DNA from: Paludibacteraceae bacterium
GTDB taxonomy: Bacteria > Bacteroidota > Bacteroidia > Bacteroidales > Paludibacteraceae
Direction: 5' to 3'
Assembly: GCA_024399535.1 (NCBI GenBank)
Contig: JAKSNU010000004.1
Coordinates: forward strand, 1-47,922
DNA length: 47,922 nt
The notes under the pieces: model-generated
Told to the model about the DNA's origin: nothing
Database searches by the model: none
The model's input: the letters and a program-made list of their open reading frames with translations, nothing else
Made by a program: the position numbers and the translations under genes
Shown: piece by piece, positions 38,811 through 47,789 of the stretch
How the letters are laid out: every line of letters starts with the position of its first letter
Numbering within the stretch: the stretch's first letter is position 1

Positions 38811-38944
38811 AGCTCTGCAGGAGCGGAATAGTGTATAAACAGAATCAAAACAGCTCTGAAAGAGCGAAAAAAATTAGGATAGGGCGTGAGCCCTATCTAT
38901 GGAGTAATCAACAACCAGAGTGCCGTAGGTACGACATAATTTTT
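38811..38944. repeat. Interspersed Bacteroidales hairpin-repeat array
   Basis: Modules in order: GCTCTGCAGGAGC (38812-38824), GCTCTGAAAGAGC (38853-38865), the perfect 8-bp hairpin GATAGGGCgtgaGCCCTATC (38878-38897), and TGCCGTAGGTACGACATAAT (38921-38940). I recall this module series as a common intergenic repeat of Bacteroidales. It sits at the border between core genes and the island. Confidence 0.7.
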
Positions 38945-38988: not shown

Positions 38989-39020
38989 TTTGTCCATATC
39001 AAAATAATACACTAACTTTG
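38989..39020 (+). promoter_or_regulatory. Near-consensus promoter of the helicase-methylase operon
   Basis: TTTG (38989-38992), 20-nt spacer, TAACTTTG (39013-39020) and then C. The predicted start is about 39027, some 430 nt before the first ATG, so a long leader RNA is made. Confidence 0.75.
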
Positions 39021-39026
39021 CAACGT

Positions 39027-39456
39027 AAAACCAGCAGTTTGTGCGTAATGCAGTAAACCGCTGATTTACAAAATATATTACATATAAATAGCATTGACTA
39101 TCATTGTGGTCTTCCAGAGAATAAGCCTGAGAAACTTTATTATTCTGAATAAACACCACATCAATGATGGTTGGCTCGTCCGTATATAGCTGAGGCTATG
39201 TGCTGAGAATTTGCCAACCGACATGCAATAACGAATAGTTGATGCCAAGCACTCCAATATTGGATTGCTGGCATTTTTCTTATTGCATGTCGGAGGTTCA
39301 GAAATTCTCACGCTTAGCCTCAGGAAGACCGTAAGATGATTGCCTGCAATCCTTTTCTTTTTGCAAGGCAATAGTCTTGCCTTACGCACACATATACAAG
39401 CCAATTCGGTTGATTGATAGCATTTGCATTAATTAGCCAGGTTGGCTTGTATTGTT
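39027..39456 (+). ncRNA. Highly structured leader RNA of the helicase-methylase operon
   Basis: Nearly the whole leader can be paired. Hairpin 1 is 39031-39065 (CAGCAGTTT/AAACCGCTG, with TGC/GCA inside). Hairpin 2 is 39100-39168 (ATCATTGTGGT with ACCACATCAATGAT, one 3-nt bulge, and an inner CAGA-ATAA/TTATTCTG stem). Hairpin 3 is a nested structure of 132 nt: outer arms 39191-39212 and 39302-39322 (TGAGGCTA and GAGAATTT with their inverses, one U:U mismatch, a G:U pair and a bulged C), a perfect 14-bp stem 39218-39231/39280-39293 (CCGACATGCAATAA), and an inner stem 39242-39273 around TCCAATATTGGA. Hairpin 4 is 39332-39384. Hairpin 5 is ACAAGCCAA/TTGGCTTGT (39397-39405/39442-39450), ending 6 nt before the ATG. 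Bulges and wobble pairs look like a folded RNA rather than simple DNA repeats. Its function is unknown. Confidence 0.65.
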
Positions 39457-42400
39457 ATGTCAAAGATTTTCGACAATAGTTCAGAAGAGAAAAAATTCAA
39501 GAACATTCTGAAAGAGGTCATTATCGAAGATTCTGTCAAACGCATTGACATGTGCGTTGGCTATTTCAATCTTCGAGGATGGGATTTCATTGCAGAGGAG
39601 ATTGACGAACTTGAAGGAGCATACGTGTATGAGGAAGATGACCGAGTGTTTCGTACATCCCGTTTGCTGATAGGTATGTATCAGGCTCCAGAAGAATTGA
39701 TAAGGCTTCAGTATAAGAACAAAAGATTGCCTGATTCTGACTATGTCCAGAAATGTAAACGCAAAATAGCGGAAGACTTCAAACGACAGTTGCTCATAGG
39801 CAAATGTACGGCAAAAGACGAGGTCACGCTTCGTGTTCTGTGTCGCCAACTCGAAGAAGGGAAGGTTTGTGTGAAATTGTACTTGAAAGAGCCTCTTCAC
39901 GCTAAACTTTATCTTGCCCACACCAACAGCAATCTGAAGAAGATATATGCTTTCTTAGGCAGCAGCAATCTGACATACAGCGGTCTTGCAGGTAATGGCG
40001 AGTTGAATACAGAGGTGAATGACACTAACGATGATGAATACTTAGCTCAATGGTTCGATGACCGATGGAACGACAGATTGTCTATTGACATCAGCAAAGA
40101 CCTTGTAGAGGTAATCAAAAACAGTTGGGCATCTGCTGACGACATTCCGCCATATTACATATATCTGAAGACAGCTTATCTGCTTAGTCAGGATGCACGT
40201 ACAGGTATGGCAGAATATACTTTGCCACCTATGTTCAAGAAAGATCTTTTTGAATTTCAGGAGACAGCCGTCAAGATTGCTGCAAAACATCTGAATAACG
40301 AGAAACGAGGAGGAGCAATGATAGGTGATGTCGTTGGTTTAGGTAAGACAATTACAGCCTGTGCGGTTGCAAAAGTGTTTGAACAGCAGTTTTATGCCTC
40401 AACCTTGATAATCTGTCCTGCCAATCTTCAGGTTATGTGGCAGAAATATATTGACAAATACGATTTGAAGGCTACAGTCACCTCTATGCAAAAGAGGATG
40501 GATGTTGAGAACATGAGGTATTACAAGCTCGTGATTATTGACGAGAGTCACAACCTCAGGAATTCAGAAGGCAGTCGTTATCATAACATCAAAGACCTAA
40601 TCAACGTCATGGATTGTAAGGTTCTCTTACTCACTGCAACGCCTTACAATAAAGACTTCTCAGACCTTGGCAATCAGCTGAAACTGTTTCTTGACCCTGA
40701 TTTTGATTTGGGCATACGTCCAGAATCCTATATACAGGAAATTGGCGGGGAACGTCAGTTCCTGATGAAGCACAACGAGGTTTTCATCCGTAGCATCAAG
40801 GCTTTTGAACAAAGCGAGAGGGTAGAGGATTGGCGTGAATTGATGAAACTTTTTCTTGTCCGTCGTACAAGGACGTTCATCAAAGATAATTATGCTCTGA
40901 CAGACCCAGACTCCAAGCGAAAATACTTGCAATTCCGTGATGGTCACAAGAGTTATTTTCCTGACCGTATTCCAATAGCTGTCAAATATAAAACAGAGAA
41001 AAACGACCAGTATTCCCGCCTTTACAGTGATGAGATGATAGACACTATGAAGGAGTTGAAACTTCCTCGTTATGGTCTTTCGCATTACATTGATGAGGCA
41101 AAAAAGAATGAGGCTGGCAAAAATGACAGAAAATTTCTTGAAAACCTTTCTCGTGCTGGTCAGCGTATGATGGGTTTCTGCATGAGTACCTTTTTTAAAC
41201 GTATAGATTCTTCAGGTTATTCTTTTCTGCTGACTATTTATCGCCACATTCTGCGAAATATGGTTTTTATCTATGCTATAGACAATAAAATCGAATTACC
41301 TATAGGAGATGAGAATGTACTTCCTGATGACTTTATGGAAGATAACGACTCTGGCACTCTTCCTAACATACCATCGGCAAAAAATATCTTGAAGGAAGAA
41401 AACGGAACAATAAAGATTTCAACAGATGATAAACTGTATGAGTCTTTGGCAAAGGATTATTACCAGGCTATAATTTTGAAAAGTGGGAGTAGTGTAAGGA
41501 GATTAGACTCTGGTTATTTCAAACGCTCTCTCAAAACTCAATTGAAGAAAGATTGCGAGGTTCTTTTCAAGATTCTGAATATGTGTAATGGATGGGTTGT
41601 AAAGGAAGACCAGAAACTTAACGAACTTGAAACGCTGCTGACTGTCACTCATCCAAAGGAAAAGGTTTTGGTCTTTACACAATACAGCGACACTGCAAGA
41701 TATATTTACAATCAACTCAAGAAACGGGGAATTGATTCAATAGAATGTGTTACAGGCAATACTGACAATCCTACGGCCATAGTTGACCGGTTTTCGCCTA
41801 AAAGCAACAATGCGCCAACCGAGAAGGAAAATGAATTGAGAGTGCTTGTTGCAACTGACGTTCTTTCTGAAGGCCAAAACCTTCAGGATGCACACGTTAT
41901 TGTTAATTACGATATGCCATGGGCTATCATAAGGTTGATTCAACGTGCAGGCCGTGTTGACCGTATTGGTCAGGAGGCCGAAAAAATCTTGTGCTATTCT
42001 TTCTTTCCTGCAGAAGGTGTCGAGAAGGTCATCAGGTTGCGCAAACGTCTGAACGACCGTATAAACGAAAATGCCAATGTCGTAGGCAGTGACGAGATTT
42101 TCTTTGAGGGTAACGAGAAAAACCTGCAAGACCTCTTTAATGAAAAAGCAGGTTCGCTTGACGATGAAGATGATTCAGACGTTGATATGGCATCATACGC
42201 TTATCAGATTTGGAAGAACGCAACTGACGCAAAACCAGAACTGAAAAATATTATTCCAGCCATACCAGAGAAGGCATATTCCACAAAGACAAACACTGGC
42301 AACACTGTTGATGAAGGTGTTGTCACGTACGCCAAGACGTCAAGCGATAGCGACATCCTTACATGGGTTGACAAGAACGGACGGATAGTGACACAGTCGC

Positions 42401-42843
42401 AACTTACAATCCTGAAGGCTATGGCATGTGACAGCAAAACTCCTGCTGTTTCTCCTTTCGACAATCATCATGAATTGGTTGACAGGGCACTATCCTCTGT
42501 CAGCGAGATGAACACAAAGACGAGCGGCATATTAGGTAGTCGTTTTAGCACAAAGTTCAGGGTCGTTGCAATGATGGAGACATATATGGAGCAAAATCCA
42601 ATTTTTGCCACTCCTGAATTGAAAGAGGCAATAAACCAGATTTACAATTATCCATTGCGGGAACAATCTAAATTCACCTTAGGTCAAATGCTGAAACGTG
42701 GAGACATGGCTGATGATTTTGCTGAATATTTGGTAGAGATGTGCCGTGCAAATCAACTTTGTGTAATTGCAGAGGAAAATGAAAACAAAGAAGCAAGAGT
42801 AATATGTTCTCTTGGATTGAAAAACGAAGACAATATTGTATAA
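39457..42843 (+). CDS. PLD-nuclease-like / SNF2 helicase fusion protein
   Basis: 1128 aa from the ATG at 39457; the frame also reaches a TTG at 39442, which lies in the leader hairpin. The N-terminal 200 or so residues are phospholipase-D-like: HAKLYLAH at 148-155 (HxK motif, the usual Asp replaced by His155) followed by FLGSSNLTYSGL. Then comes a superfamily 2/SNF2 motor: Walker A GDVVGLGKT (290-298), DESH (362-365), LLLTATPYN (390 on), FTQYSDTARYIYNQL, and motif VI QRAGRVDRIGQ (829-839). The C-terminal 280 residues are not recognised. The family is common in restriction and defence modules, where it would translocate on or cut invading DNA. It starts the operon and is followed 3 nt later by the methylase. 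Confidence 0.88.
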   Translation: MSKIFDNSSEEKKFKNILKEVIIEDSVKRIDMCVGYFNLRGWDFIAEEIDELEGAYVYEEDDRVFRTSRLLIGMYQAPEELIRLQYKNKRLPDSDYVQKCKRKIAEDFKRQLLIGKCTAKDEVTLRVLCRQLEEGKVCVKLYLKEPLHAKLYLAHTNSNLKKIYAFLGSSNLTYSGLAGNGELNTEVNDTNDDEYLAQWFDDRWNDRLSIDISKDLVEVIKNSWASADDIPPYYIYLKTAYLLSQDARTGMAEYTLPPMFKKDLFEFQETAVKIAAKHLNNEKRGGAMIGDVVGLGKTITACAVAKVFEQQFYASTLIICPANLQVMWQKYIDKYDLKATVTSMQKRMDVENMRYYKLVIIDESHNLRNSEGSRYHNIKDLINVMDCKVLLLTATPYNKDFSDLGNQLKLFLDPDFDLGIRPESYIQEIGGERQFLMKHNEVFIRSIKAFEQSERVEDWRELMKLFLVRRTRTFIKDNYALTDPDSKRKYLQFRDGHKSYFPDRIPIAVKYKTEKNDQYSRLYSDEMIDTMKELKLPRYGLSHYIDEAKKNEAGKNDRKFLENLSRAGQRMMGFCMSTFFKRIDSSGYSFLLTIYRHILRNMVFIYAIDNKIELPIGDENVLPDDFMEDNDSGTLPNIPSAKNILKEENGTIKISTDDKLYESLAKDYYQAIILKSGSSVRRLDSGYFKRSLKTQLKKDCEVLFKILNMCNGWVVKEDQKLNELETLLTVTHPKEKVLVFTQYSDTARYIYNQLKKRGIDSIECVTGNTDNPTAIVDRFSPKSNNAPTEKENELRVLVATDVLSEGQNLQDAHVIVNYDMPWAIIRLIQRAGRVDRIGQEAEKILCYSFFPAEGVEKVIRLRKRLNDRINENANVVGSDEIFFEGNEKNLQDLFNEKAGSLDDEDDSDVDMASYAYQIWKNATDAKPELKNIIPAIPEKAYSTKTNTGNTVDEGVVTYAKTSSDSDILTWVDKNGRIVTQSQLTILKAMACDSKTPAVSPFDNHHELVDRALSSVSEMNTKTSGILGSRFSTKFRVVAMMETYMEQNPIFATPELKEAINQIYNYPLREQSKFTLGQMLKRGDMADDFAEYLVEMCRANQLCVIAEENENKEARVICSLGLKNEDNIV

Positions 42844-42846
42844 GTC

Positions 42847-45800
42847 ATGAAACGGAAAGATTTTGACCAGTTGATAGATTCTGCATCATTCGCTGAACTT
42901 TTCATTGCAGAAATGGGATGGGACAACCCATCTAATACTTTGTCTGTTCCTGTTGAACTGAATGATGCTCAATACGAGTTTGTTCCTGTAGCGGAGAAAA
43001 GTGGTTTTCAGGTCTATAAATGTCTTGTAGATGATGTGCCTACTGCTTCTGAATGTAAACAGATTGACAACAAGCTTCGCCGGTTCAGTTATGATTATAT
43101 ATGTGTTTTTATTCAGAATGGCACATGTCACCATCTTTGGCTAACTCCTGTCAAGTCTAACGAGAAACGTGAGTTGGTCAAGACTGAATATGTAGGTGGA
43201 GCAAAAGCTGATTTCCTTTTCTCGAAAATCGATGATCTCTCGTTTGAGTTGACGGATGTAGCACTTATCACAGATGTCAAGACAAAGGTTCAGGGCTCTT
43301 TCAGGTTGAACAGCGAGGAGGTGACAAAGGCATTCTACAAGCAGTTCAGTGAGCAACATAAATCTTTCAAGAAATATATTACTGGCATAAGTGGTGAGAA
43401 AGATGTTGATTGGTATGCAAGCGTTATGCTAAACCGATTGATGTTCTGCTATTTCATTCAAAAGAAGGGATTTCTCGATTTCGATACTAACTATCTACGC
43501 AACAAACTTGTGTGGGTGAAAGAACAACAAGGCAAGGACAAGTTCTTCGGGACCTTCTATAAAGGTTTTCTCTGTGCTTTGTTCCATAAGGGTTTGAATG
43601 ACCCAAAACACGACACTCCTGAATTCACAAGGAAATACGGCCGCATCCCTTACCTGAATGGTGGAATGTTCGATTATCATCAGTTGGAACTTGACAACAA
43701 TGACATAGATATTGCCGACGAGGCTTTTGAGTCACTTTTCACATTCTTCGACAAATGGAATTGGCATCTCGACACTCGCCTGACTGCCTCTGGCAAGGAC
43801 ATAAACCCAGATGTGTTGGGTTATATTTTCGAGCAATATATCAACGACCGTGCCTCGATGGGTGCTTACTACACTAAAGAGGACATCACTGAGTATATTG
43901 GCAAAAACTGCATCATTCCTTTCCTGATGAACAAGACTGAGGAGAAATCCAAAAGTGCTTTTCGTCCTGATGGTTTTGTATGGACGCACCTTAAAGAGAG
44001 TGGTGGCAAATATATTTATGATGCTGTCAAGAAAGGTCATTCATCTGACTGGCAGAACCGCATTCCAGACTATATAAACAAAGGTATTGACACAACCACA
44101 GGCAATCTCCTTGAACGTCGTGAGCGATGGAACGAAAAGACTTTTGAGGAGTTTGCCTTACCTACTGAGATTTGGCGAGAGACTATAGAACGTCTGCAAC
44201 GTTGTGATTCTTTGCTTCAAAAGATTTCTAATGGCGAGATAACCAACATAAACGATTTTATCACATATAACCTTGATATTCGCCAGTTCACCGAAGACGT
44301 GATACGCACAACAGACGACCATCGTTTTGTCCTTCATTTCTATGAGGCTCTTCAATCTGTCACCATTCTTGACCCAACGTGTGGTTCAGGTGCTTTCCTA
44401 TTTGCGGCACTGAATATCCTTGAACCACTCTACGAGGCTTGCCTTGACCGCATGGAGGAGTGGAATCACTCAAAACCTAAACTGTTTGACGATAAACTGA
44501 CTGAGATTGCTGATAAATACGGAAACAATCGTCAGTATTTCATCTACAAGAGTATAATATTGCGTAATCTTTATGGTGTTGATATAATGGTTGAGGCTAC
44601 TGAGATTGCCAAGTTACGACTGTTCCTGAAAATGGTGGCTGTTGTTGACGTTGACAAACGCAAGGACAACCTTGGTCTTGAACCTCTTCCTGATGTTGAT
44701 TTCAACATTAAATGTGGAAATACGCTCGTAGGGTATGCTACAGAAGAAGAATTGAACAATACCTTGGCATTTGGCGATATGTTTGCCAACCTTGAATTCA
44801 AGGAAAAGATTCATTCTGAAATGGCCGTTGTTTCAGAGGCATATAACTGTTTCCGTCAGGAACAATTGAGAACATACGACGACAATGCAAGCATAAAGGC
44901 GACAAAAGAAGAATTGAAAACAAGGCTTGGCAAATTGAATGATTTGCTGAACCAGCACATGTACAAGAGCATAACAGGCAAAGATGTCCTTGACGAAGGT
45001 GTTGATTTATGGTATGACTCTTGGCAAAAATCTCATCAGCCATTCCATTGGTTGGCTGAGTTTTATCAGATTATCAAGGGTAATGGTGGCTTTGATGTAA
45101 TTATTGGTAATCCACCGTATGTGGAATATAATAAGAAAGATTCAAAAACTCATAAATCAGTTTCTGATAATTACAAAATAACAAATTATAAAACAGAAGA
45201 TTGTGGAAATTTATATGCTTTTGTAATTGAAAGGTGTTTTTCTATTAGTAATTGCTTGTCCAAAGAAGGTTATATTATTCCATCTGCAAGTTTGTGTACA
45301 CCAAGGATGCATGAACTATCTAATATTTTAAAAGATAAAAAATGCTTGTGGTCTAGTATTTGGGATGAACGACCATCCAAGTTATTTGATGGTGTTGATC
45401 AACAGTTATGTATTAATATATGTGGAAAAGCGCAAAATGAAATTTCATATATTACAAAAATGAATCACTGGACAGTAGAATGTAGAAATTTTCTATTTAA
45501 CAATATAAAATATCAAGAATATGATTCTAATGATATTATTGCAAGTGTTGTCCCAAAAATACAAGATAAAATAGAACGTTCTATTATTAAGAAAATTTTC
45601 AAAGAATCTAAACAACTAGGTCTATATTATGTTAAAGGAGGAATTCCCATTTATTATAAGAATGCAGGAGGTCGATATTGGAGACTGGTTAAATCTTATC
45701 CAACATATTTCAAAAGTCAGACCAATACAACAACATCTACAGAAAAGGTTTATATGGTCACAAATGACATGACGAAAAAGACTGTTGCTTGTCTTTGCTC

Positions 45801-46155
45801 AAATTTATTCTATTGGTTTTGGCGTTTAGCATCAAATTGTCGTCATCTCACAAATAGAGAATTGGAAGCATTCCCAATTGCTGTAAGTCTGTTAAATGAA
45901 TCATTATTATTGGATAAGTTAAGTTCTAAGTACGAACTATCATTGGAGAAAAACAAAAAACGCACTACCACTATTAGTAAAAACACAGGTGAAATAACCC
46001 AAGACTTTTACTATATGAAATATTCAAAACCCATAATTGACGAAATAGACAAAGTCCTTGCGAAATATTATGGCTTCACAGAAGAGGAACTTGACTTTAT
46101 CATAAACTACGACATAAAATATCGTATGGGTGATGAATTGGGAAATGAAGAATAA
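42847..46155 (+). CDS. Large adenine-N6 DNA methylase (Eco57I/type IIG-like)
   Basis: 1102 aa. S-adenosylmethionine site DPTCGSGAFL at 509-518 and catalytic NPPY at 755-758 identify an adenine-N6 (gamma-order) methyltransferase of the Eco57I/PglX style. Residues 1-330 form an N-terminal region (FVPVAEKSGFQVYKC, then YICVFIQNGTCHHLWL) in which I see no PD-(D/E)xK nuclease motif. A helical stretch with LGYIFEQYINDRASMGAYYT at 320-340 leads into the methylase. After NPPY comes the target-recognition region, which is markedly AT-rich (about 22-32% GC in lines counted, against about 47% in the methylase core). It probably marks host DNA so that the helicase partner spares it. Confidence 0.9.
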   Translation: MKRKDFDQLIDSASFAELFIAEMGWDNPSNTLSVPVELNDAQYEFVPVAEKSGFQVYKCLVDDVPTASECKQIDNKLRRFSYDYICVFIQNGTCHHLWLTPVKSNEKRELVKTEYVGGAKADFLFSKIDDLSFELTDVALITDVKTKVQGSFRLNSEEVTKAFYKQFSEQHKSFKKYITGISGEKDVDWYASVMLNRLMFCYFIQKKGFLDFDTNYLRNKLVWVKEQQGKDKFFGTFYKGFLCALFHKGLNDPKHDTPEFTRKYGRIPYLNGGMFDYHQLELDNNDIDIADEAFESLFTFFDKWNWHLDTRLTASGKDINPDVLGYIFEQYINDRASMGAYYTKEDITEYIGKNCIIPFLMNKTEEKSKSAFRPDGFVWTHLKESGGKYIYDAVKKGHSSDWQNRIPDYINKGIDTTTGNLLERRERWNEKTFEEFALPTEIWRETIERLQRCDSLLQKISNGEITNINDFITYNLDIRQFTEDVIRTTDDHRFVLHFYEALQSVTILDPTCGSGAFLFAALNILEPLYEACLDRMEEWNHSKPKLFDDKLTEIADKYGNNRQYFIYKSIILRNLYGVDIMVEATEIAKLRLFLKMVAVVDVDKRKDNLGLEPLPDVDFNIKCGNTLVGYATEEELNNTLAFGDMFANLEFKEKIHSEMAVVSEAYNCFRQEQLRTYDDNASIKATKEELKTRLGKLNDLLNQHMYKSITGKDVLDEGVDLWYDSWQKSHQPFHWLAEFYQIIKGNGGFDVIIGNPPYVEYNKKDSKTHKSVSDNYKITNYKTEDCGNLYAFVIERCFSISNCLSKEGYIIPSASLCTPRMHELSNILKDKKCLWSSIWDERPSKLFDGVDQQLCINICGKAQNEISYITKMNHWTVECRNFLFNNIKYQEYDSNDIIASVVPKIQDKIERSIIKKIFKESKQLGLYYVKGGIPIYYKNAGGRYWRLVKSYPTYFKSQTNTTTSTEKVYMVTNDMTKKTVACLCSNLFYWFWRLASNCRHLTNRELEAFPIAVSLLNESLLLDKLSSKYELSLEKNKKRTTTISKNTGEITQDFYYMKYSKPIIDEIDKVLAKYYGFTEEELDFIINYDIKYRMGDELGNEE

Positions 46156-46641
46156 ATGACACATTTTGGCAACATATCTTTGCTTGACCAGCCGAAGCAA
46201 GCTTTCCTCTGCTCCAGATGTACTTGTTGCAGTGTGATACTGCCATGTCTTGATTGGGCAACCGAACATCGTAAAGGTTCATCGCCTGTAATAAGCACAT
46301 TTCATAGTATTTTGGAACAATCAGTTCTTGACCTGCTTATTTCAGGAACGTGCCCTATTATTATTGTGCTTGGTCGTTCTCTGTATAAGAACATTCCAAC
46401 TAAACTTCAACCTCTGATTGAACAAAACCGCCTTCTCATCATATCATTGTCAAACAGCAATCGCATTAGCCGTGACTCTGCCGCAAAATGCAACAACTTC
46501 ATCTGTGAACAATCTTCCGAAATAACCTTTGGCTACATTTCCCCCAAAAGCCACCTCAATTCTCTATACAACTCGTCACTTCTATCCGCAAAGAAAATCC
46601 ATCTGCTCAGTGAACAGATTTTTGCATCAGACAAACAATAA
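46156..46641 (+). CDS. DprA/SLOG-like small protein
   Basis: 161 aa; the ATG directly follows the methylase stop. It shows the DprA-like Rossmann pattern: an N-terminal FLCSR with nearby Cys residues (FLCSRCTCC), SPVISTFHSILEQSVLDLL, then GTCPIIIVLGRSLYKNIPTK, LQPLIEQNRLLIIS, and a degenerate RNR-like helix AAKCNNFICEQSSEITFGYI. DprA proper loads RecA on single-stranded DNA during transformation and is longer. Short DprA/SLOG proteins in defence operons are thought to sense nucleotides or bind DNA ends. Its strict adjacency to the helicase and methylase marks it as a component of the module. Confidence 0.65.
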   Translation: MTHFGNISLLDQPKQAFLCSRCTCCSVILPCLDWATEHRKGSSPVISTFHSILEQSVLDLLISGTCPIIIVLGRSLYKNIPTKLQPLIEQNRLLIISLSNSNRISRDSAAKCNNFICEQSSEITFGYISPKSHLNSLYNSSLLSAKKIHLLSEQIFASDKQ

Positions 46642-46714: not shown

Positions 46715-46743
46715 TCCAAAAACACATTGTGTTTTTGGATTAT
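46711..46743. terminator. Shared terminator of the island operon and abiH, stops inside the stem
   Basis: ATAATCCAAAAACAC (46711-46725), loop ATT, GTGTTTTTGGATTAT (46729-46743): a perfect 15-bp stem. The stop of the HU-like remnant (46712-46714) and the stop of the convergent abiH gene (46740-46742) both lie in it. Confidence 0.8.
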
Positions 46744-47789
46744 ACATCTAAGTGTAAATTGCTGTAGTCATACGTGAAGCAATGCTTAAGAAAGGCATTA
46801 AGTTCAGCTTCTTTATTTGCATTCAAGTAATTATATCTTTCAACAAGGCCTTCTGTCGAAAAACTCATGTACTCAATTTCTCCATCTTCTAATCTTGGCA
46901 TAAATGTATCGTCTGATATATTATTAATGTTTATCTTTACCTCATTACATTTTGAATCAGTGTAATTGATGTTTGCGATAATCTTTAAATTCCTGGAGGT
47001 CTTTAATGTCTTTTTGAAATATTGGGAATCAGTATCACCCATTGAATGCCCAAAGATTAAAATAACATTTGCATCCATCAGTTGTTCCTGAAATAGATTC
47101 ATCATATCTATGTAATTGCTCTTCATATTAGCTTTTATTGCGTCTGGACATACCTTGAATACTTTACTGTCATATCTTGTGCCGAGGACAATACTTGGAA
47201 ATTCCTTCTGTGCCCCTTCAAGTATTGAACCATGAGGATAATGGATATGATTTCTAATTGTTTCCTCTGATACATTTTTATGATTAAGAATTATTTCACA
47301 GGTATGAGTGTAGTTGAAATTCCATATATTGTAATCTGCATTGTATTCAATTAATTTCTCAAGTACTCGATAGCTAGCCTTTTTAGTGTAAATATGATTG
47401 TCAATTTTTAGTTTGCAATTCGATTGGATATATTTGAATAAGAAGTAACGAAGAGCAAATAACTCTTTTGCAATGGTTTCTGAATTTGTTTCTAAATCAT
47501 TCTGCAAGCAATAATCTCTAATATCAATTTCAAGATCCACCCATTTACGTTCTTCTTCTTCCTTTTTAACGAAAGCAGCCAATCCATTTGGATAGATTTG
47601 CATTTTGTTTTTGTTTGTAACGAAATCTTGAAAGTAGTCATATTTACTATGATTACCATCTAACATAGGCTTAAAATCATCGCTTTTGACAAAGTCTATA
47701 TATCTGGTTTCCAAGTCCATGTCGAGGTCAAAACCATTGCCAATTATTAGCAGAACTTTTGGTGCAAGTTGAATCGGTGTTTCTTCCAT
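46740..47789 (-). CDS. AbiH-family abortive-infection protein
   Basis: 349 aa, family-like length. Key AbiH pattern: VLLIIGNGFDLDMDLETRYIDF at the N-terminus (cofactor-loop-like NGFD motif), then NIWNFNYTHT, NHIHYPHGSI with paired His, and VILIFGHSMGDTDSQYF near residue 250. AbiH of lactococci blocks phage growth by an unknown mechanism, probably nucleotide-binding or hydrolytic. It is AT-rich like the methylase recognition segment, converges on the helicase-methylase operon and shares its terminator, so it is likely part of the same defence island. No consensus promoter is visible upstream. Confidence 0.85.
   Translation of the reverse strand: MEETPIQLAPKVLLIIGNGFDLDMDLETRYIDFVKSDDFKPMLDGNHSKYDYFQDFVTNKNKMQIYPNGLAAFVKKEEEERKWVDLEIDIRDYCLQNDLETNSETIAKELFALRYFLFKYIQSNCKLKIDNHIYTKKASYRVLEKLIEYNADYNIWNFNYTHTCEIILNHKNVSEETIRNHIHYPHGSILEGAQKEFPSIVLGTRYDSKVFKVCPDAIKANMKSNYIDMMNLFQEQLMDANVILIFGHSMGDTDSQYFKKTLKTSRNLKIIANINYTDSKCNEVKININNISDDTFMPRLEDGEIEYMSFSTEGLVERYNYLNANKEAELNAFLKHCFTYDYSNLHLDV

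Follow-up and report, generated by a model that had tools for sequence, protein, structure and literature searches.

A structured leader RNA ahead of unrelated restriction-modification operons in Bacteroidales, with features of a portable cis-regulatory module

The window, by which we mean the whole 47,922-nt stretch of DNA analysed here, corresponds to contig C34 of a 1.63-Mb Paludibacteraceae assembly that is 80% complete (G000). Its forward strand carries a defence-type operon whose first gene (39457..42843, 1128 aa) encodes a protein with PLD and SNF2 helicase domains, followed by a type IIG restriction-methyltransferase gene (42847..46155, 1102 aa; PADLOC REase_MTase_IIG, E 2.1e-268). A 161-aa frame 3' of the type IIG gene (46156-46641) has no Pfam or PADLOC match and may be no gene. 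Past the operon, an AbiH gene occupies 46740-47789 on the opposite strand. Ahead of the first gene, with no gene in between, positions 39021..39456 of the forward strand specify a structured leader RNA, recognised by its fold energy and by a similarity among leaders of unrelated genes that ends at or before the start codon. No tRNA was found near the leader.

A promoter precedes this leader, as the initial annotation had claimed, but it is of the Bacteroidales rather than the sigma-70 type. It consists of a -33 element TTTG (38989-38992), a 20-nt spacer and the -7 box TAACTTTG (39013-39020), thus spanning 38989..39020 on the forward strand, and it fits what we take to be the Bacteroidales consensus (TTTG, 20 nt, TAACTTTG). 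Among the relatives described below, TAnnTTTG occurs 5' of 44 of 69 members, against 4.3 expected from simple shuffles. A sigma-70 promoter was considered and rejected; its best matches agreed at 9 of 12 positions, with six found against 2.0 in shuffles. Directly upstream of the promoter, on the minus strand at 38852-38897, lies a match to the Acido-Lenti-1 RNA (RF01687, 45.1 bits).

The predicted folding energy of the RNA from 39021 to 39456 is -170.7 kcal/mol, compared with a mean of -102.35 (sd 4.82) for 100 dinucleotide shuffles, none of which equalled it (z -14.18). Together with stems that are conserved and covary among relatives, this bears out the earlier suggestion of a selected RNA fold. 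All stems named at that stage were recovered, including the perfect 14-bp middle stem (39218-39231/39280-39293) with its inner palindrome and a last stem ending 6 nt 5' of the ATG at 39457. The description as five consecutive hairpins needs partial revision: conservation supports a long-range helix, P1, that encloses P2, P4 and P5, followed by the terminator-like hairpin and then by the pre-ATG hairpin. The outermost repeat pairing of the window (39040-39052/39378-39390) appeared by eye to be lost in the relatives compared. Three other leaders folded singly gave z -9.2 (L010) and the weaker values of -2.7 (L009) and -3.4 (L011). An Rfam 15 scan of 39021-39456 returned no family match, the best score below cut-off being 16.1 bits against 83. 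At L051, L107, L113, L122-L124 and L038, Rfam matches were absent or lay outside the elements. Indels in the leader alignments, judged by eye, are not multiples of three, an observation that bears on the idea of a leader peptide.

Relatives were sought by RNA sequence and structure alone. A DNA search matched 9 of 150 relatives, two of them weakly, a covariance model of the 5' domain (R1) matched 16 of 358 genomes of the family, and a full-core model built from 17 sequences (R2) matched 22 of 393 genomes of the order; each count includes the window's own genome. A single DNA pattern retrieved 39 contigs from the GTDB collection, by their titles all Bacteroidales or unassigned, and had no match in viral contigs. 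One of the hits, L107, comes from the isolate Parabacteroides distasonis An863. Carriage as phage or plasmid cargo was set aside, since neither exact patterns in viral contigs nor plasmid and phage DNA searches reaching only fairly close relatives gave a match. Run over 74 sources, R2 produced 76 matches; after removal of a fragment (L066) and of a 20.8-bit antisense match in L102, 74 full-length rows of at least 41 bits remained, 73 of them distinct (L091 equals L045). Three subfamilies were distinguished by strand S of P1 among the 69 members kept for sorting (without L091, L103, L072, L111 and L083): CTATCATTGTGGT (n=38), CTATTATTTGCGTTC-like (n=6) and the remainder (n=25). Terminator and promoter counts were made without L091, L072 and L037.

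A third model, R3, matched 4 of 395 genomes of the phylum and 7 of 395 of the class, again including the window's own genome in both. Inspection left out hits L114 and L115 and rejected L125, L126 and L127, which look like chance. Four hits from other families of the class Bacteroidia (L113, L122, L123 and L124) are shorter, and most carry the P5 form GCUCACGCC/GGCGUGGGC; read by eye, they keep P1, P2, P4 and P5-like stems.

The conserved elements of the window, all on the forward strand, include a 5' motif, GCAUUGACUAUC (39091..39102). Strand S (39104..39115) and strand B (39323..39334) form P1, within which P2 pairs 39123..39133 with 39305..39315. The interior region 39218..39293 comprises P4 (39218-39231/39280-39293), which holds P5 (39241-39275). 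A possible pseudoknot (39294..39320) would pair 39294-39296 with 39318-39320, crossing P2.

Covariation was assessed with our own test, modelled on R-scape. In an alignment of the 38 subfamily-1 sequences (A8), column pairs 24-240 in P1, 140-197 in P4 and 42-222 in P2 each gave E 0, followed by 25-239 in P1 (E 0.02) and 207-233 (E 0.24-0.3). All five best pairs are standard pairs, and the sixth (E 0.54) is not. Strand S was paired in 97.6% of cells and the putative pseudoknot (E about 0.24-0.3) in 100%, with exchange of A-U for G-C in 14 of 38 sequences. Over the named pairs, 87.8% of 1852 cells were paired and 24 of 53 pairs had changed on both sides; the covariation score of 0.250 compares with 0.138 in shuffled alignments (0 of 500) and 0.068-0.105 when the pairing was slid. 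The number of further pair types was less striking (79 against 74.0; 28 of 500). P4 was paired in only 71.4% of cells, and its columns align poorly.

Other alignments agree in part. Among 18 of the 25 subfamily-3 members (A9), P2 reached E 0.02 and P1 E 0.42. With 36 mixed sequences aligned by sequence alone (A10), P2 gave E 0 and the P1 pairs 0.08-2.8, the best being only 64% paired. In the alignment of all 76 sequences (A5), P1 and P2 reached E 0 despite being absent from the alignment's model; some columns that are not partners also scored E 0 to 0.06, so subfamily descent inflates this test. The smallest alignment (A4, 17 sequences) contained no significant covarying pair. Duplex tests between S and B were significant (p<0.05) in 28 of 31 and in 39 of 40 members, against 4 of 31 in the control. 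We regard P1 as firm, and the stem-conservation check proposed at the outset came out positive for P1, P2 and other stems.

The P4 stem is hypervariable yet self-complementary and turns over as a unit. Over 79 close pairs of leaders, identity is 67% in P4 against 85% elsewhere in the core, and L081 and L097 are 48% identical in P4 and 94% elsewhere in the core. Orthogonality between copies, template switching or recognition are possible causes of this turnover. A role of P4 as an R-M target site found nothing consistent among EcoRI-type members inspected by eye, and an attempt to anchor J4/5 by a regular expression mixed up the registers. A variable stem that stays paired is also a trait of retron msd hairpins, which lends some appeal to a retron-like or other effector RNA of a defence system. 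We consider this very improbable, given that four of the eight element-bearing genomes were searched (G000, 80% complete, G043, G085 and G393) with no RVT_1 match, and that the first downstream proteins have no one family in common. An effector RNA is less likely than a cis-regulatory leader. At one locus (L018), two tandem reverse-transcriptase genes that look like a defence RT pair lie 6-8 kb behind the leader (G005:C10:24158-26013).

The genes behind the leaders are biased towards restriction-modification (R-M). The search for first genes was confined to the strand of the leader, and 70 were scanned, each cut at 600 aa (L091, L095, L103 and L072 gave none, and that of L094 was read from L022). 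In 56 of the 70, the product is a DNA methyltransferase or a SNF2/ResIII-type helicase, which supports the link to defence operons made initially. By our own class labels, which for a few truncated genes rest on likeness of the first residues, the methyltransferases comprise 19 of EcoRI type, nine MmeI/N6-like, six type III Mod, two MmeI type IIG, two HsdM, two D12, and one each of C5, N6 and N6_N4; the helicases are seven PLD-SNF2, five DrmD-like and one ResIII. The other 14 are a UvrD-like helicase, a decayed PLD fragment, three proteins with no Pfam family, an ion channel, an SPFH protein, an acyltransferase, three sulfatase/EptA-like proteins, a GDSL protein, a WYL gene 361 nt off and one leader with nothing near. 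In 65 of 70 cases, the longest open frame within the 1.2 kb after the core has the same strand as the leader. Since the searches used RNA features only, this bias was not built in; the members are not independent, because related species are included. In an upstream-neighbour control (n=67), no Pfam family occurred more than twice and no R-M family appeared among the 25 of 133 listed; by PADLOC, two upstream neighbours match a type I specificity subunit.

The association does not extend to the whole family, no R-M gene being recognisable behind the four distant relatives. The first proteins after L122, L123 and L124 have no Pfam match, and no frame of 70 codons was found behind L113. Taken with the 14 of 70 leaders before other or unclear genes, these relatives indicate that R-M control is not the function of the family as a whole and that the R-M link belongs to subfamilies 1 to 3. 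Separately, the genes behind the leaders L054, L056, L063 and L046 are of the sulfatase-fold (LTA synthase or EptA-like) or acyltransferase kind, and modification of the cell surface could likewise act as phage defence. The earlier idea that the RNA might be a guide, neutralise a toxin or serve as an effector for the window's module in particular is not supported, as the same RNA heads many unrelated R-M and other genes.

Leaders that are 83-92% identical can head unrelated genes. Of the 49 subfamily-1 pairs whose aligned leaders reach an identity of 80% or more, 32 differ in gene class, for instance a type III Mod and an HsdM leader at 92%. In such pairs, similarity begins between the promoter region and the core start and extends to the start codon or stops short of it by as much as about 110 nt, with one pair continuing 3 nt past. 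The window's leader and L075 are similar from -99 to 369 (ATG at 369 and 437, respectively), the window and L102 from -75 to 369 (L102 ATG at 378), L084 and L097 from -1 to 336 (ATG at 338), and L080 and L086 from -1 to 263 (ATG at 310). For a pair with related genes, L099 and L085, similarity continues to the end of the compared stretch. Closely similar leaders before unrelated genes, with similarity ending at or before the start codon, point to a swapped module.

Such swapping would also be expected of a mobile promoter element or MITE that landed before defence genes by chance, and two or three divergent copies do occur in some genomes. The window's own genome additionally holds a truncated 5' copy (L002, G000:C7:34182-34244) that retains the promoter and roughly 100 nt from the leader's 5' end and shares 89% identity across 63 bases; the gene behind it is unrelated and reads like a lipoprotein. 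We give this explanation little credence: compensatory changes are present in the stems, 56 of 70 copies stand before R-M-type genes, and the incomplete own genome contains one full copy beside the truncated piece, where a MITE would be multi-copy. On this count of copies, the block does not behave as a MITE.

Two further hairpins follow the core. T1 (39338..39362, forward strand) is a terminator-like hairpin, GATTG/CAATC with a T-rich tail (GATTGCCTGCAATC plus TTTTCTTT). A hairpin with a T-run after P1 occurs in 37 of 71 members, against 1.2 expected from simple shuffles; the window's T1 conforms to the rule of this count and is absent from a stricter terminator scan. Many members have their own promoter and a terminator-like hairpin, which would suit a stand-alone small RNA that ends at T1 and acts in trans as a regulator, decoy or protein partner, with the operon read through or separately transcribed. 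The distant relatives L122 (z -8.7) and L113 (z -6.3), which fold into stable rods, are in keeping with this alternative. Against it, similarity often extends beyond T1 to the start codon, a start-codon hairpin recurs across unrelated genes, and TAnnTTTG between T1 or the core end and the gene shows no excess (5 of 69, with 3.6 expected), a sign that transcription of the gene probably begins at the promoter of the leader. We therefore judge a trans-acting RNA unlikely, although less so than the retron-like and mobile-element explanations. A cis-acting leader is favoured over a trans RNA by the location of the RNA ahead of the start codon, by its swapping regardless of the gene behind it and by the hairpin at the start codon.

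T2 (39394..39452, forward strand) is the hairpin right before the ATG, with GATAG at 39416-39420. Its survey used the 69 members of the duplex test described below without L095, L094 and L109, and a hairpin around a GATAG-type anchor was found in 65 of these 66, at least five of which (L110, L078, L040, L054 and L104) look weak or off the start by eye. Where the distance was measured, the 3' end of T2 falls between 8 nt past and 15 nt before the ATG in 44 of 55. The earlier idea that the last stem might control ribosome access is supported as a possibility by this predicted start-codon hairpin. Many members keep the core sequence GATAG...CTATC, as might be expected if T2 were a palindromic DNA operator bound by a transcription factor, in which case the RNA fold would be incidental. 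This option appears remote, considering that the arms differ between members yet stay paired and that fold energy and covariation sit in the RNA upstream.

Several strands have more than one potential partner. The 5' motif is complementary to the 5' arm of T2 and, together with S, to strand A (39155..39174, forward strand), its alternative local partner, with 13+4 bp in the window. The motif:T2 duplex was significant (p<0.05) in 39 of 69 members (without L091, L103, L072, L037 and L071). This pairing is not unique: in 28 of 71 members the motif reaches p<0.05 with P4/P5 as well, a region that holds a similar GAUAGnnnGAUG stretch. The S:A helix covaries in A5 (E 0 at two pairs), an alignment that was itself fitted to a model with this helix. 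In subfamily 1, no S:A pair changes on both sides; the invariance of these strands is in part a product of the search, as the pattern that retrieved most loci prescribes their sequence. Among members of subfamilies 2 and 3 found without the pattern, motif plus S paired with A at p<0.05 in only 14 of 31, compared with 7 of 31 in the control. P1 and S:A overlap only partially, so strict mutual exclusion does not follow. An exchange of the motif between these partners is put forward as a hypothesis.

The conserved P1/P2/P4/P5 fold, the promoter box, T1, T2 and swapping between unrelated genes are each supported by computation. Many unrelated R-M and other genes behind the same RNA, and a 3' part that covers the start codon, point to a shared cis-regulatory leader; the capacity of the motif to pair with either the T2 hairpin or an inner strand makes a cis switch that gates expression the best reading. 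We therefore favour, with a probability of roughly two in three, a cis-acting regulatory leader that serves as a portable module heading Bacteroidales R-M and related defence operons and works as a two-state switch. The module would consist of promoter, folded RNA, T1 and T2, with transcription starting near 39027. In the low-expression state, motif and S would pair with strand A, so that T2 could fold across the start codon and T1 could end transcription. In the open state, S would pair with B to close P1, and the freed motif could pair with the 5' arm and loop of T2, exposing the start codon. The balance would be tipped by some shared cellular cue, for example a ligand, a protein of the host or the condition of its transcription or translation apparatus; the direction of the switch and its trigger are our proposals. 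Autoregulation was discarded, as the first downstream products are unrelated; for the same reason, each operon's own product is an unlikely signal and a shared one is likely. A phage-triggered switch, proposed initially, is one possible candidate.

This leader looks like an apparently undescribed shared RNA control module for bacterial immunity, heading dozens of unrelated R-M and DNA-methylation operons in gut bacteria. More tentatively, and with the odds against it, it may represent a new class of sensor RNA in gut Bacteroidales, in which a single input, either a metabolite or some mark of phage attack, would act through one RNA-controlled regulon of unrelated defences. Such a regulon would include type I, II, IIG and III restriction, DISARM-like helicases and perhaps cell-surface modification genes. 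Two open questions are touched here, namely what keeps R-M systems silent or safe when they reach a new host, and what coordinates distinct defences. One conserved RNA before many unrelated systems would make both testable, and its signal, once found, would be a common input to bacterial immunity. Furthermore, the leader provides a sequence handle for defence operons (39 loci from one pattern), and its clean exchange at the start codon makes it a natural plug-in regulator.

Several known systems share features with the leader. Riboswitch-type leaders combine a long structured 5' leader with a terminator and a ribosome-access hairpin. The present RNA resembles them in its long structured leader, terminator-like hairpin, start-codon hairpin and strands with alternative partners. 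Of the properties of a riboswitch, it has the conserved covarying fold in a 5' leader, and an expression platform (terminator or ribosome-access hairpin) is predicted in many members. It differs in having no Rfam match or known ligand and in heading unrelated defence genes instead of the genes of a single pathway. T-box, ribosomal-protein and amino-acid attenuators likewise control through alternative pairing in the leader; the present RNA has no such Rfam match, and because the downstream products are unrelated, neither a shared amino acid nor autogenous control by a product would fit. C proteins or antisense RNA delay or tune R-M expression in other systems, whereas here a shared leader RNA would do so, and the window has no gene between leader and first gene. 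Retron and defence-RT RNAs are folded RNAs beside defence genes with a variable stem, two features found here as well; RVT_1, in contrast, was missing from the four carrier genomes searched.

A literature search over titles and abstract starts, with subscription papers mostly outside it, found no description of this leader RNA, and the main text of PMC8040213 contains no occurrence of restriction, methylase or methyltransferase. The AbiF system RNA of C. difficile (PMC12373285) is alike in what its record indicates of RNA-based regulation of a defence system; by its title it concerns one phage-encoded system, unlike the present RNA, which heads unrelated operons. Leader-based regulation as such is known; a single leader RNA shared by unrelated restriction systems appears, as far as searched, to be new.
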